From Mesorhizobium sp. M4B.F.Ca.ET.058.02.1.1 (GTDB taxonomy: Bacteria; Pseudomonadota; Alphaproteobacteria; Rhizobiales; Rhizobiaceae), in assembly GCF_003952505.1 (NCBI RefSeq), contig NZ_CP034450.1:5084001-5148000 (forward strand): DNA of 64,000 nt, in the 5' to 3' direction. The notes beneath the pieces are model-generated. The model was not told the origin of the DNA. It ran no database searches and worked only from the letters and a program-made list of their open reading frames with translations. Positions 12,269 to 28,281 of this stretch are shown here, piece by piece. How positions within the stretch are numbered: position 1 is the stretch's first letter; each line of letters opens with the position of its first letter. The translations under genes and the position numbers were made by a program.

Positions 12269-12375
12269 GGGCGTCGCCCTTACCAGCCCCGCCCGAGAAA
12301 CGGAAGCCGGGGGTGCAGGCACCCGGCAAACTTCCGCTTGCGCGGTGCCGTGCCCGGGCCTATGTGTCGAAACGC

Positions 12376-12472
12376 TCTAACGGGGTGCCGGACGCGGGTT
12401 TTCGCGGACCGGCTGAGAGGCAACCGCCAACCCGCTGAACCTGATCCGGTTTGTACCGGCGGAGGGATTAGA
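12376..12472 (+). promoter_or_regulatory. TPP riboswitch (THI box)
   Basis: This is the standard TPP aptamer. It has GGGGTGCC near 12382, the CTGAGAG core at 12413-12419, ACCCGCTGAACCTGATC at 12430-12446 and the GGAGGG 3' side of P2 at 12460-12465. P1 is formed by TCTAA (12376-12380) and TTAGA (12468-12472). It is followed after about 40 bases by the GAAGGAGG ribosome-binding site of thiB. TPP binding is expected to lower expression of the thiamine uptake operon when TPP is plentiful. Confidence 0.96.
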
Positions 12473-12527
12473 CGTCTCGGACCATCCGGCGCCTCAATTC
12501 CTTTCAATACCAACGAAGGAGGCGCCG

Positions 12528-23437: not shown

Positions 23438-26400
23438 CTACTTCTTCAGCTGGTCGCGCAAGGCGGCGAGCTTGGCGAAGGGCGAGTCCGGGTCGAAGCG
23501 CGCCGGCCGTTCGTCGCGCGGCTTGGCCTGGAAGGCAGGCTTGCCGGCTTGCGCGCCGCCCTTGCCATCCTGCCGGCCGCCTTTCCAGTCGGGCCTGCCG
23601 TCGCGGCGGTCGGGACGCTCGCCTTGCGGCCTGCCTTCGCGCCGCTCGCCAGCCTCGCCTGGCGGCCTCGGCTTGAACTTGGAGCGGTCGAAGCGCGGCT
23701 TGCCGGCACCGTCGCGCTGGTCGCGGCGCCCGTCATTCGGGCGTCCGCCCGGCTGGCCGGCCGCTTCGCCAGTTGCGTCGGACCGGCCGCCCTGCGCGGC
23801 CGGTCCGTTGCGCGGGCGATTGTCGCGGCGGTTGTCGTGCCGGTGGCGTGGGCGCTGCTCGAAACGACCCTGACGCCACAACAGGATAGGCTTCGGCTCC
23901 TCGGCCTCGGATGCCGTCTCGCCGGCTTCCGCAGTCGCGGCAGGCTGGGTGGACCCGTCGGCCGCCGCCGGCGAGTCCTCGGCCACCGGCTCTCCCGCTA
24001 CGACGTCGACTTCCGCAGTCTGGGCTTCTGCCTCCGCCTCGGCTGCCGGAGCAGCGTCAGCTGGTTCTTCGGCGACGGCTTCCACCACCACCGGGGCCTC
24101 GTGCGTGGCTTGGGCTGGAGCCTCAAGCGGCTCTTCAGCGACCAGTCCGGTGACGGGTTCGGCCGAAACGTCGACCGTGGCTTCCGGCGCGACAGCGGCG
24201 TCCGGCCCAGGTCCAGAACCCTCGGCCGGTGTTTCGGCACCGGCTTCCGCAGCCGTGGCTGCGGCCGCTGCACCCATCTCGGCCTTTGCCGCCTCTTCCG
24301 CCGCAAGCTTGGCGGCGGCCGCCTCGCGCGCGGCACTGTCTTGCGCCTCGAGCCGCGCCTTGACCTCGGCTGCCGGCTTCGGCTCGGCGCGATAGCCGAG
24401 ACCTTTGAGGATCTCTTCCATGTCGTCGGCGGTAGCGCCGAGGATCGACATCATCGGCGGCGTCACCATGAAGGCGTGGCCGTCATAGGCGCCGTCGGGA
24501 CGCTGGCCCAGCTCCGGCTTCCAGTTGGTCGCGGGGCGGATCAGGTCGGCCAGCCGCTCGAGGATATCGACGCGCACCGCGCGGCGACCGAGATTGCGGT
24601 AGCCGGCGAGCTTGTAGAAGCTCTTGTCGAAGGCGGGATCGATGACCACCGAGGTGCGGCCCGACGCCAGCGCATGCACCACGTCGCCAAAGCCGGGCTT
24701 GTCCTTGCCGTCATTCTTCAGCGCCCAGAGAAGCGTCACCAGCCCGGCCGGCGCCGGCTTGACCAGCGCCGGCACGAAGACGTGGTAGGCGCCGAAGCGC
24801 ACGCCCAGCCGGCGCAGCGCCGCGCGGCCCTCCTGGTCGAGCGACTTCATCTCCTCGGTGATGTCGCGGCGGTTTATGAGGCCGAAATGCTCGACGAGCT
24901 GGAAGGCGATGCCGCGACCGATGCCGGTGAGCTGCTCGGCATTCTTCAGGTCGACCAACGGCTTCAGCAGCGACTCGATCTGGAAATTGACAAAGCGCTC
25001 GGCGCGCGCCGCCACCTTGTCGCGGGCCGGGCCGGTGAGCTGCTCGTCGGCCAGCAGCACGAGGCGCGGCTTCAGCGGCTCATCGCCGGCAACCAGCGTG
25101 CCGATCGGCGCGCCGATCCAGCGCAGCGTTCCGTCGGAGCCGAGCGCGAGATCGCCATTGGCGCAGGCGCCGAAGCGTTCGGCGCGCGTTTCGAACTCGG
25201 CGGCAAGCGCCTTTTGGGCAGCCGTGCGTACGGCCTTGGCATCCTCGCCGCCGGCGCTCTGGTCGGCGGTGAAGCGGAACCCCTGCAACTCGCCGACATG
25301 ATGGCCTTCGACGAGGACGGTTCCGGTAGGGCTTATTTCGGCTTCAGGCATTGTATTTTCTCTAAGGCGCCGCATGAGGACGGAAGTCCTGCGGTCTACG
25401 AAGCGTTTCGTCAACCGCTCATGCAGCGCATCCGACAATCTGTCTTCGATTTCGCGCGTCTTTTCCTGCCAGTGTGCCTGATCGGCCAGCCAGCCAGGCC
25501 GGTTGGAGACAAAGGTCCAAGTACGAATCTGGGCGATGCGGTGCGAGAGCGTGTCGATATCGCCATCGGTCGTGTCGGCGCGGCGGACCTGCTCGGCCAT
25601 GTAGTTCTCATCGACATGGCCGCGCCTGGCGAGGTCCATGTAGATCGACGCGATCAGGTCGGCATGCTGGGCCGGTGCGATCTTGCGGTAGTCGGGCAGG
25701 GCACAGGCTTCCCAGAGCAGCGCGACGCGCCTGGCATCGGTGGCGAGCGAGCGGATCTCCTCGTCGCGCGACAGATGCTCCAGCGCCTGCGCATCGACCG
25801 CCGGCAGGGCGCGTGTCAGGCCCTCCACCGGAGCGTTGGTCTCGATCGAGCGCTTCAGCGCGTCGAGGCTGGAGAAATCGAAATCGGCGGTGCGCCATTG
25901 CAGGACCTTCACCGGATCGAAGTCATGGCCCTCGATCTTCTGGACCAGTTCCTCGTCCAGCGGATCGACCTGGCCGGTGACGCCGAACGTGCCGTCGCGC
26001 AGGTGGCGGCCGGCGCGGCCGGCGATCTGGCCGAGCTCGGCCGCGGTCAGGTTGCGGTATTGGTAGCCATCGAACTTGCGGTTCTGGGCGAAGGCGACGT
26101 GGTCGAGGTCGAGGTTGAGCCCCATGCCGATGGCGTCGGTGGCGACAAGGTAGTCGACGTCGCCCGACTGGAACAGCGCCACCTGCGCGTTGCGGGTGCG
26201 TGGCGAGAGCGCGCCGAGCACGACGGCGGCACCGCCCTGCTGGCGGCGGATCAGCTCGGCGATGGCGTAGACCTCGTCGGCTGAGAAGGCGACGATCGCG
26301 GTGCGCCGCGGCAGGCGGGTCAATTTCTTCGAGCCGGCATAGGCCAGGTGCGACAGCCTGGGCCGCGTCACCACCGAGATGCCCTTCAGGAGGCGCTGCA

Positions 26401-26830
26401 GGATGCCGTGCATGGTGGCCGCGCCGAGCAGCAGCGTTTCCTGGCGGCCGCGCAGATGCAGGATACGGTCGGTGAAGATGTGGCCACGCTCGAGGTCGCC
26501 GGCAAGCTGCACCTCGTCGATGGCGACGAAGGCCGCATCGGTCTCGCGCGGCATCGCCTCCACCGTGCAGACCGAATATCTGGCGCCCGCCGGTTGGATC
26601 TTCTCCTCGCCGGTGATCAGCGCCACCTTGTGGACGCCGACCTTCTCGCAGACGCGCGCATAGACCTCGCGCGCCAGGAGCCTGAGCGGCAGGCCGATGA
26701 CGCCGCTCTCATGCGCCACCATGCGCTCGATGGCGAGGTGGGTCTTGCCGGTGTTGGTGGGTCCAAGCACGGCCGTCACGTCGCGGCCGGAAAGGATCAA
26801 CGGCTGGGGGTGTTTCGGCTGGACGTTCAT
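23438..26830 (-). CDS. Suv3-type DEAD/DEAH-box RNA helicase with long disordered tail
   Basis: 1130 residues from ATG 26830 (MNVQPKHPQPLILSGRDVTA); an in-frame ATG at 26902 would add 24 residues of unclear homology. Helicase core: Walker A GPTNTGKTH, motif II IDEVQ (the DEVQ form typical of mitochondrial Suv3), GAATMHG, and motif VI GRAGRH. A middle alpha-helical region follows. The last third (about 830-1130) is Ala/Glu/Pro-rich, then Arg/Gly/Asp-rich and basic, likely an RNA-binding disordered tail. It ends with a conserved-looking DSPFAKLAALRDQLKK. It is cotranscribed with the Hsp15-like gene, suggesting an RNA or ribosome-linked role. Confidence 0.88.
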   Translation of the reverse strand: MNVQPKHPQPLILSGRDVTAVLGPTNTGKTHLAIERMVAHESGVIGLPLRLLAREVYARVCEKVGVHKVALITGEEKIQPAGARYSVCTVEAMPRETDAAFVAIDEVQLAGDLERGHIFTDRILHLRGRQETLLLGAATMHGILQRLLKGISVVTRPRLSHLAYAGSKKLTRLPRRTAIVAFSADEVYAIAELIRRQQGGAAVVLGALSPRTRNAQVALFQSGDVDYLVATDAIGMGLNLDLDHVAFAQNRKFDGYQYRNLTAAELGQIAGRAGRHLRDGTFGVTGQVDPLDEELVQKIEGHDFDPVKVLQWRTADFDFSSLDALKRSIETNAPVEGLTRALPAVDAQALEHLSRDEEIRSLATDARRVALLWEACALPDYRKIAPAQHADLIASIYMDLARRGHVDENYMAEQVRRADTTDGDIDTLSHRIAQIRTWTFVSNRPGWLADQAHWQEKTREIEDRLSDALHERLTKRFVDRRTSVLMRRLRENTMPEAEISPTGTVLVEGHHVGELQGFRFTADQSAGGEDAKAVRTAAQKALAAEFETRAERFGACANGDLALGSDGTLRWIGAPIGTLVAGDEPLKPRLVLLADEQLTGPARDKVAARAERFVNFQIESLLKPLVDLKNAEQLTGIGRGIAFQLVEHFGLINRRDITEEMKSLDQEGRAALRRLGVRFGAYHVFVPALVKPAPAGLVTLLWALKNDGKDKPGFGDVVHALASGRTSVVIDPAFDKSFYKLAGYRNLGRRAVRVDILERLADLIRPATNWKPELGQRPDGAYDGHAFMVTPPMMSILGATADDMEEILKGLGYRAEPKPAAEVKARLEAQDSAAREAAAAKLAAEEAAKAEMGAAAAATAAEAGAETPAEGSGPGPDAAVAPEATVDVSAEPVTGLVAEEPLEAPAQATHEAPVVVEAVAEEPADAAPAAEAEAEAQTAEVDVVAGEPVAEDSPAAADGSTQPAATAEAGETASEAEEPKPILLWRQGRFEQRPRHRHDNRRDNRPRNGPAAQGGRSDATGEAAGQPGGRPNDGRRDQRDGAGKPRFDRSKFKPRPPGEAGERREGRPQGERPDRRDGRPDWKGGRQDGKGGAQAGKPAFQAKPRDERPARFDPDSPFAKLAALRDQLKK

Positions 26831-26902
26831 CGGCCCGGAAATAGACTTTCTGCCGCTCGTAGTCGGGGGCGCGCCGGCGATGGCGCGTGTGACAGCCGAC
26901 AC

Positions 26903-27498
26903 ATAGGGATTTCGAGCGCGAAGCGAAAGCGGAATGTTCCGCCGTCGGTCTCCATGGGTCGCGTGGGGGGGCGAAATCCGCTCCCGATTAACGGTTGGAA
27001 CGAGTCTGGAACGAATCGGCGACGAATCGCTGACTCGCCGAAGTTCATGGTTTGTTCATGGCTACATGTGGATTTTTTGACGATGAGTCTCACCATATGC
27101 TGAATCGCTTGATTGGCCCGTTTCATGCAGGACGAACGCGAGTCGCGCGTCGCCGTTAACCTTTGCCGATGAACGACCGACGTTGTTCGTCTGGCCTCGG
27201 CCAAGATTATGAAATTCTTGACGTTTCCTAACGGGCCTTAATCTTTCGGGTACGTTTCTCGGCCCTCGGCGTTAACGTTCCGGCCCAAAGCCGGAACGAA
27301 TCGGCGACGAATCAGCGATGTCGGGATTTTCTTGGTTTGTTCACCCCAACATGTTGTGTCGCAGGGAGGTTTTCCACCGAGAATCCACAGGTTGGGCACA
27401 TGCTTTTGCACAGGCCGCGCGCGAGCCATTAACCTTTGCGTGCCGGAGCGGGGCAAAGGCGTCGCGCGAGGGGCCCGCACAGCGGAGAGGTGACAAAC
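26903..27498. other. GANTC-rich, tandemly duplicated intergenic region
   Basis: About 600 bases without a supported gene, lying upstream of the helicase and downstream of phaB. Two related segments about 285 bases apart share the 21-base block starting at 27008 and 27293 (GGAACGAATCGGCGACGAAT plus C), TGGTTTGTTCA (27048 and 27333) and TTAACCTTTGC (27156 and 27429). Ten GANTC sites fall in 27002-27385: at 27002, 27013, 27024, 27032, 27085, 27102, 27140, 27298, 27309 and 27381. DnaA-box-like TGTGGATTT and AATCCACAG are also present. GANTC is the CcrM methylation target in alphaproteobacteria. Confidence 0.8.
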
Positions 27499-27527
27499 AA
27501 AACGGGCCGGTTTCCCGGCCCGTTTTT
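27499..27527 (-). terminator. Terminator of phaB
   Basis: AACGGGCCGG (27501-27510) pairs with CCGGCCCGTT (27515-27524) around a TTTC loop, with A and T runs outside. It sits about 30 bases past the phaB stop. Confidence 0.88.
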
Positions 27528-27555
27528 GTCGATGTCTATTTCTCGGCGCGGGGCG

Positions 27556-28281
27556 TCAAACGAAGTACTGGCCGCCATTCGCGGTGATGGTCGAGCCGGT
27601 GATGAAGCCGGCCTCGTCGGAAGCGAGGAAGACGACGCAGCGCGCGACTTCTTCCGGCTCGCCGAGCCGGCCCACCGGGATCTGCGGGATGATGCGCTCG
27701 TTGAGCACCTTCTCGTCGATTGCCCTGACCATCTCGGTGGCGATGTAGCCGGGGCATATGACGTTGACGGTGATGCCGGCGCGGGCGCCCTCTTGAGCCA
27801 GCGCCTTCGAGAAGCCGATGTCGCCGGCCTTGGCGGCGGAATAGTTGACCTGGCCGGCCTGGCCCTTCTGGCCGTTGATCGAGGAGATGGTGATGACGCG
27901 GCCGAACTTGCGGTCGCGCATGCCGCCCCACAGCGGATGCGTCATATTGAAGACGCCGGACAGGTTGGTGTCGATGACCTCTTTCCACTGCTCGCGGGTC
28001 AGCTTGTGGAACATGGCGTCGCGAGTGATGCCGGCATTGTTGACGAGCACCGAAACCGGGCCGAGATCGGCCTCGACCTGCCTGATGCCGGCAGCGCAGG
28101 CGTCATAGTCGGCGACCGACCATTTGTAGACCGGGATGCCGGTCTCGGCCTTGAACTTCGCGGCCGCCTCGTCATTGCCGGCATAGTTCGCCGCAACCGA
28201 ATAGCCGGCCTTCTTCAAAGCGATCGATATCGCCGCGCCGATACCGCGCGATCCGCCCGTGACGATTGCTACCTTACTCAT
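27556..28281 (-). CDS. phaB: Acetoacetyl-CoA reductase
   Basis: 241 residues. It reduces acetoacetyl-CoA with NADPH to (R)-3-hydroxybutyryl-CoA for polyhydroxybutyrate (PHB) synthesis. It is a short-chain dehydrogenase with N-terminal VTGGSRGIGAA (residues 7-17), NNAG, catalytic Ser in VITISSINGQKGQ and YSAAKAG (Tyr/Lys). The C-terminus TITANGGQYFV is typical for PhaB. It follows phaA on the same strand, with an inverted heptamer-repeat element in the 118-base gap. Confidence 0.95.
   Translation of the reverse strand: MSKVAIVTGGSRGIGAAISIALKKAGYSVAANYAGNDEAAAKFKAETGIPVYKWSVADYDACAAGIRQVEADLGPVSVLVNNAGITRDAMFHKLTREQWKEVIDTNLSGVFNMTHPLWGGMRDRKFGRVITISSINGQKGQAGQVNYSAAKAGDIGFSKALAQEGARAGITVNVICPGYIATEMVRAIDEKVLNERIIPQIPVGRLGEPEEVARCVVFLASDEAGFITGSTITANGGQYFV

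Follow-up and report, generated by a model that had tools for sequence, protein, structure and literature searches.

A conserved DNA element, tied by position and orientation to the gene of a Suv3-family helicase, was observed in the window (the whole stretch of 64,000 bp that was analysed). It can be read, with a probability of about 0.68, as a composite control region mainly for this helicase gene, which would respond to CcrM/GcrA, LexA and DnaA; the control could perhaps extend to the S4-domain, fdxA and carD-like genes, which stand behind the helicase on the same strand. We infer the role of each of the four proteins, LexA, CcrM, GcrA and DnaA, from its motifs. A switch that couples the helicase to DNA damage and replication is the most likely role, ahead of a replication origin. 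An earlier note on this DNA had offered both a control region before the helicase and a replication-associated site; the first is strengthened by the linkage to the helicase in 57 of 57 loci and by the conserved GANTC sites, and the origin alternative found no support.

Genomic context

The source genome, Mesorhizobium-like by its named relatives, consisted of 6.46 Mb in one contig. The flagged block was located in a gap of 725 bp between phaB (acetoacetyl-CoA reductase, TIGR01829, 27556..28281), the far-side neighbour, and the gene of a Suv3-family DEXQ-box helicase of 1130 aa (23438..26830; Pfam DEXQc_Suv3 and Helicase_C), both on the minus strand. By sequence, the nearest solved structures of the helicase were Suv3 6f4a and SUPV3L1. 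A putative sigma-70-type promoter of the helicase was chosen by eye at 26902..26930 on the minus strand (CTTTCG or GCTTTC, 16-17 bp, CCTATG). Pairwise identity among 30 loci reached 0.925 at 26896-26935, against 0.757 and 0.769 at the 4-fold sites of the helicase and phaB genes, which serve as reference; a consensus promoter scan of 26700-27700 returned zero promoter-like sites, so the promoter call is tentative.

A perfect 12-bp inverted repeat (27499..27526), assigned to neither strand, is probably the transcription terminator of phaB. It was absent from the output of the terminator scan, and the fold of 27425-27545 was conserved, with z of -6.3 on the minus strand and -2.7 on the plus strand. 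As the gap is long, conserved and includes a hairpin of the terminator type, a structured leader or small RNA could also be thought of in place of a DNA-binding region, which is very improbable: no Rfam match at gathering score was found in the region (the best sub-threshold hit had 22.1 bits against a cut-off of 50), and RNAalifold did no better than column shuffles on both strands for four of five stretches (z from -1.5 to 0.6), the fifth being the phaB terminator hairpin itself. The small RNA EcpR1 was rejected as a candidate, being located elsewhere, at divK-pleD/rpmG, according to the available text of PMC4414408. A protein-coding reading of the core was set aside by eye alone. Elsewhere in the window, a serC leader (1970-2021) and a TPP riboswitch (12371-12484) were present.

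The GANTC cluster

Ten GANTC sites, starting at 27002, 27013, 27024, 27032, 27085, 27102, 27140, 27298, 27309 and 27381, were contained in 384 bp (27002-27385), with four of them in 35 bp, as reported before. The depletion of GANTC that had been presumed was confirmed in the window, where 91 sites were observed and 100 dinucleotide shuffles gave 312 on average. The random expectation of about 1.5 given earlier was too high, the local expectation being about 0.55 per 384 bp; because GANTC is depleted in the window, the ten sites are more striking than was first thought. The Poisson tail for ten sites in 384 bp was about 4e-10, computed for one place alone. The block was the densest 400-bp stretch for GANTC in the window and in a sample of 60 stretches of 20 kb from this genome, the runner-up having nine. 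A second dense cluster, with nine GANTC in 400 bp (L086:7900-8245, about 5,803,900-5,804,245), was located upstream of a TMEM43-family ORF. Across 53 loci, GANTC density was 16.15/kb beside the element and 1.16/kb in coding controls, where the search behind most of these loci demands two GAATC per locus.

The block was indeed built of two copies 285 bp apart, which were identical at 21 of 21 bases at 27008/27293 and at 81% at 27044/27329, and the GCCNTTAACCTTTGC pair was present at the 273-bp spacing. The first copy holds the core GANTC array (27002..27036, plus strand), with sites at 27002, 27013, 27024 and 27032 spaced by 11, 11 and 8 bp; the GANTC sites of the core thus stand about one helical turn apart. 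All the following parts are also given on the plus strand. The core is followed by a conserved block with TTTGTTCA and ACATGTGG (27045..27080, pairwise identity 0.872), by another with ACCATATGCTGAATC and the GANTC sites 27085 and 27102 (27085..27124, with an identity of 0.879 at 27091-27124), and by the first copy of TTAACCTTTGC, which resembles a CtrA half-site (27156..27166; 0.912 at 27155-27168). The second module (GAACGAATCGGCGACGAATC ... TTGTTCAC, 27285..27345, 0.832) contains the GANTC sites 27298 and 27309 and is without the distal GAAC described below, and the second copy of TTAACCTTTGC stands at 27429..27439 (0.851 at 27425-27440).

Conservation within the genus

With a wider query of 1801 bp, a match was obtained in 61 of 61 genomes searched, some of the matches breaking inside the gap. 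Thirty loci were aligned, namely that of the window and the 29 best-scoring of 60 other genomes. In these same-genus loci the GANTC sites 27002, 27013, 27024, 27032 and 27102 were each kept in 29-30 of 30 (27102 in all 30), followed by 27298 (26/30), 27309 (25/30), 27085 (23/30), 27381 (15/30) and 27140 (1/30). The comparison across relatives that the earlier note had named therefore came out in its favour, with most sites kept; neither a duplicate missing from relatives nor unconserved GANTC sites, which it had listed among the grounds for giving up its reading, was encountered.

The core had a pairwise identity of 0.942; the other conserved blocks ranged over 0.78-0.91, a DnaA-like array had 0.746, and four spacers had 0.34-0.48. 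Since the core clearly exceeds the 4-fold sites, it must be under strong constraint as DNA. The letters of the DnaA-like array were conserved no better than 4-fold sites, and its case therefore rests on its phase and its recurrence across genera.

The probable SOS box in the core

The consensus order of the core was GAAC-N7-GAAC, GAATC, N5, CGAATC, then usually GCTGACTC, GATTC and TTTGTTCAC, with a TGAATC block further out. GAAC-N7-GAAC, found here at 26998..27012 on the plus strand by motif and conservation, matches the SOS (LexA) box of Alphaproteobacteria, GTTC-N7-GTTC or GAAC-N7-GAAC in the available text of PMC3091678, PMC6237742 and PMC7987155, and shares bases with the GANTC site 27002. 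A box of the SOS type is thus present upstream of the gene. The available text of PMC7987155 also describes the ready overlap of this box with GANTC at SOS genes.

GAAC-N7-GAAC was present in 23 of 24 loci found by BLASTN (L220-L243), which form the sample free of selection for the motif, as L244 and L246-L276 were fetched by patterns that contain it. For the alignment in register, 68 sequences were given and 13 without an anchor dropped; in the remaining 55, the distal GAAC was found in 51 and the proximal one in 54, with 15 spacer types among the 51. For three of the four sequences without the distal GAAC (L260-L262), the reading register was shifted. The spacer had no GANTC in L227-L230 and L242, yet both GAAC were retained. 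The two GAAC thus outlast the GANTC of the spacer, and the half-sites are therefore constrained on their own. A second box, GTTC-N7-GTTC at 27043-27057, had its first G in fewer than 3 of 30 rows and is almost confined to this genome; L220 and L221 have GATTC at this place.

These findings could be explained by a plain SOS (LexA) promoter, in which GANTC would be kept merely as the contents of GAAC/GTTC half-sites and of other binding sites. Incidental GANTC of this kind is proposed for other SOS genes in the available text of PMC7987155, and the box outliving the GANTC of its spacer fits such a promoter. This explanation is unlikely, as the sites 27024, 27032 and 27102 stand outside the box and are nevertheless kept in 29-30 of 30 loci, and further GANTC sites were observed at other places in other families, for example in the GAGTC-rich stretches of L222-L225. 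Conserved GANTC sites upstream of the gene, as expected for control by CcrM/GcrA, were found together with the SOS box. Among the points against the composite control region is its length of about 600 bp, more than an ordinary promoter needs. Another is that about 70 bp separate the SOS box of this genome from the putative helicase promoter, which stands on the gene side, so that simple operator overlap is not evident here.

Distribution and linkage to the helicase gene

DNA similarity alone sufficed to find the core across many families of the order. BLASTN with a 641-bp query from the region gave matches in 80 of 297 genomes of the order (38 of 122 genera); by the author's judgement of the rows, 76 of the 80 match in the element proper and the other four (G152, G154, G192 and G330) in other parts of the query alone. 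A looser pattern, with at most two mismatches, was found in 290 of 394 genomes of the family (84 of 109 genera), and the reversed-pattern control in two genomes. A stricter pattern applied to the whole class was found in 3 of 385 genomes, all of the same order (three of the five order members sampled) and in none of the 380 outside it; this pattern missed the worn core of L343. Two to four GAACGAATC modules in one orientation, spread over up to about 3.2 kb, were seen in some genomes, namely at L226, L227 and L229 and, among the matches listed, in G894, G952, G958, G1013 and G1049.

The helicase gene was located downstream, in the same relative orientation, in all 57 loci L220-L276, which comprise 24 of the 30 loci fetched by BLASTN, all three strict-pattern loci and the best 30 of the looser-pattern matches. 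All were found by BLASTN or pattern and never by the helicase protein; L245 is the window's own locus, and L220 and L221 are of the same genus. The distance to the helicase was 71-199 bp in 42 of the 57 and greater in the other 15, up to 1219 bp. On the far side, phaB occurred within the fetched stretch in 20 of the 57 loci.

Loss of the element was checked in 20 pattern-negative genomes of the family, one per genus, and in 10 genomes of the class outside the order. The helicase was present in 19 of the 20, the remaining one being a genome of 1.5 Mb. Two of these 19 (L324 and L325) have a worn core with GAAC-N7-GAAC kept, and in the other 17 the element was untraceable over some 1.46 kb of upstream sequence, where the best places had 6-8 mismatches and at most two GANTC per 400 bp; in three of the 17, a lone GAAC/GTTC-N7 pair occurred elsewhere. 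The element must therefore be dispensable in these 17 genomes, which counts against the composite control region. Nine of the 10 genomes outside the order were without the core. In the tenth, L343, a worn copy of the core stands 873 bp before the helicase start; it has two mismatches and reads GAAC-N7-GAACGAAC, CGAATC and TTTGTTC, with TTATCCACC some 120-140 bp beyond it. The core possibly predates the order, a single case being too few to say.

The DnaA-like array

Two DnaA-like words had been pointed out before; TGTGGATTT proved a poor match, and AATCCACAG part of an array of four DnaA-box-like 9-mers on the same strand. Only part of one such array had been noticed then; the phased array as a whole and the conserved GAAC-N7-GAAC core had been missed. 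The four DnaA-box-like 9-mers start at 27370, 27381, 27392 and 27404 (27370..27412, plus strand), in a phase of 11, 11 and 12 bp. A cluster of candidate DnaA boxes, such as is looked for at oriC and at datA/DARS loci, is thus present. The array is degenerate in this genome and scored 34.2, where the next independent best in 60 sampled 20-kb stretches and the window was 26.7. The score was designed after the array had been noticed, and controls in relatives and on spacing were added for that reason.

The core was present in 165 of 167 loci, many of them from close relatives or the same species, and an array scoring at least 30 was found on the same strand in 83, on the other strand in none and in flanking controls in none. 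Among 41 representative loci, a score of at least 30 was reached by 13 at the 11/12-bp spacing, 9 at 10/11 and 1 at 21/22, and by none at 9/10, 12/13, 13/14 or 15/16, with the reversed consensus, or on the opposite strand at any spacing tried. Such arrays were distributed in Mesorhizobium, Aminobacter and the genera g441, g452 and g488, as well as g443, which is perhaps Aminobacter itself. A score of 30 was not reached at any of the loci L222-L243 from distant families, and several genera of the family were also without the phased array. The missing array in distant families, the identity of 0.746 and the post hoc score were all counted against the composite control region.

The phased array could also belong to a locus controlling DnaA activity in the manner of datA/DARS, whose boxes would load DnaA soon after replication; hemimethylated GANTC would mark DNA as replicated, and the helicase link would be of secondary importance. 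Apart from the array itself, the position of hemE is in keeping with this, at 0.42-0.99 Mb from the element in 17 Mesorhizobium genomes and, for 22 of a further 30 genomes compared, at 37-484 kb (in two more genomes, hemE was on another contig); in the other eight of the 30, from three families, the distance was 0.58 to about 2.3 Mb, which speaks against it. Adjacency and orientation to one gene were fixed in 57 of 57 loci, and distant families keep the GANTC core without the array, so that a DnaA-control locus appears improbable.

Proposed mechanism and comparison with known systems

As a composite control region, the element would work as follows. LexA would occupy GAAC-N7-GAAC and repress the helicase until DNA damage occurs. 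CcrM would methylate the GANTC array, and the hemimethylated state after fork passage would be read, probably by GcrA together with RNA polymerase; in part of the family, DnaA at the phased array would add replication timing. The helicase would then be produced upon fork passage or DNA damage. At the GANTC site 27002, which overlaps the SOS box, methylation and LexA would compete. For CtrA, which may take part as well, the one pointer in the sequence is the conserved TTAACC half-sites. GANTC was enriched 4.4-4.7-fold in the GcrA ChIP-seq peaks of B. abortus, lexA and uvrA being among them, according to the available text of PMC6813329.

A wider and rather doubtful reading is an ancient alphaproteobacterial checkpoint, where LexA and the state of CcrM methylation would meet on one nucleoprotein surface, joined in some of the Rhizobiaceae (in the GTDB sense) by a helically phased DnaA filament, acting as a datA/DARS-like regulator of DnaA or tying the helicase to fork passage and damage. 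If true, a presumed RNA-decay helicase would be part of replication and repair.

In E. coli, datA and DARS are non-coding loci with clustered DnaA boxes outside oriC. The element is like them in being non-coding, with clustered candidate boxes away from oriC, and unlike them in being fixed beside one gene, with GANTC and an SOS box, and in the tandem boxes at 11-12 bp. The alphaproteobacterial oriC at hemE, as in Caulobacter and Sinorhizobium, is intergenic and contains DnaA boxes and GANTC; the element shares these traits and differs in that the same genome has a separate origin candidate at hemE. CcrM promoters of Caulobacter have one or a few GANTC each, while the element has five or more that hardly vary, of which three follow one another at 11 bp, and is kept across families. 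It resembles the promoters of ctrA, ftsZ and mipZ in the available text of PMC3973325 in having conserved upstream GANTC in GANTC-poor sequence. As in alphaproteobacterial SOS promoters, GAAC-N7-GAAC survives spacer change and overlaps GANTC (available text of PMC7987155); unlike them, the element adds an ordered GANTC array and, in part of the family, the DnaA-like array, and its target is a Suv3-type helicase. No such helicase is named as an SOS gene in the available text of the literature searched, a body to which the main regulon paper (Erill 2004) does not belong, and no name for the element occurs in the available listings and text, supplements being outside this scope. The main text of PMC5596092 does not include the flanking genes of the element.

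The gene of a bacterial relative of mitochondrial Suv3 is thus preceded by a GANTC array that is dense, phased and conserved to great depth, combined with an SOS box and, in some members of the family, with a DnaA-like array. To our knowledge, Alphaproteobacteria have CcrM but few known sites where clustered methylation cooperates, unlike Dam/SeqA in E. coli. The region offers a compact place for studying how methylation, damage and initiation signals could be combined, and suggests that Suv3-type helicases have a part in DNA as well as RNA metabolism.

The replication origin

A chromosomal or secondary replication origin at the element would be in accordance with the phased DnaA-like boxes, with the GC content of the gap (0.58 against about 0.65 in the surroundings), with a cumulative GC skew that is lowest at about 20-26 kb of the window, and with the stretches sampled from about 5.11 Mb onwards until about 1.0 Mb having mostly positive skew. 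It is nonetheless highly unlikely, as features expected of an origin were found at hemE, 0.42-0.99 Mb away in 17 genomes (0.99 Mb in this genome, with hemE at 4.12 Mb). The densest cluster of TTATCCACA-type boxes in the sampled 1.26 Mb was located upstream of hemE, where two or more boxes of this type occurred in 16 of 16 aligned genomes and an AT-rich tract was conserved, the 17th genome having been dropped because it was cut by a contig end. In each of the 17 genomes, every match to a parS-like pattern with one mismatch allowed lay no more than 10 kb from hemE, while the reversed pattern also gave 1-2 matches in 8 of the 17. An oriC would stand at the replichore switch, near hemE and parS, and the element does not have this position.

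The two most skewed octamers, chosen unsupervised, flip at about 0.76-0.86 Mb, the antipode of which is about 4.0-4.1 Mb, near hemE. They flip also at 4.4-4.6 Mb, and lower-ranked octamers break elsewhere. As a dif pattern was matched in 0 of 17 genomes, the terminus rests on the octamers. In the genome G027, the octamers fail to separate the two loci, and skew rises from about 0.70 Mb, ahead of hemE at 0.78. The main result opposing hemE as the origin is that GC skew alone points to about 5.11 Mb in this genome. The chromosomal origin is more likely to be at hemE, to judge from its motifs, although GC skew disagrees. The hemE locus is reportedly the proven origin in Sinorhizobium.

The candidate oriC upstream of hemE spans 4,117,980-4,118,400 (L092, L293), with conserved DnaA boxes and the AT-rich tract, and this tract carries three GANTC sites that were largely kept in the 16-row alignment. 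The strand-biased octamers GGGCAGGG and GGCGAGGG, which are KOPS/AIMS-like, flip sharply at 0.76-0.86 Mb. Between hemE and the window, a stretch of about 0.45 Mb with low GC (0.59-0.60) was observed at about 4.54-4.99 Mb, which is perhaps a symbiosis island or another large island.
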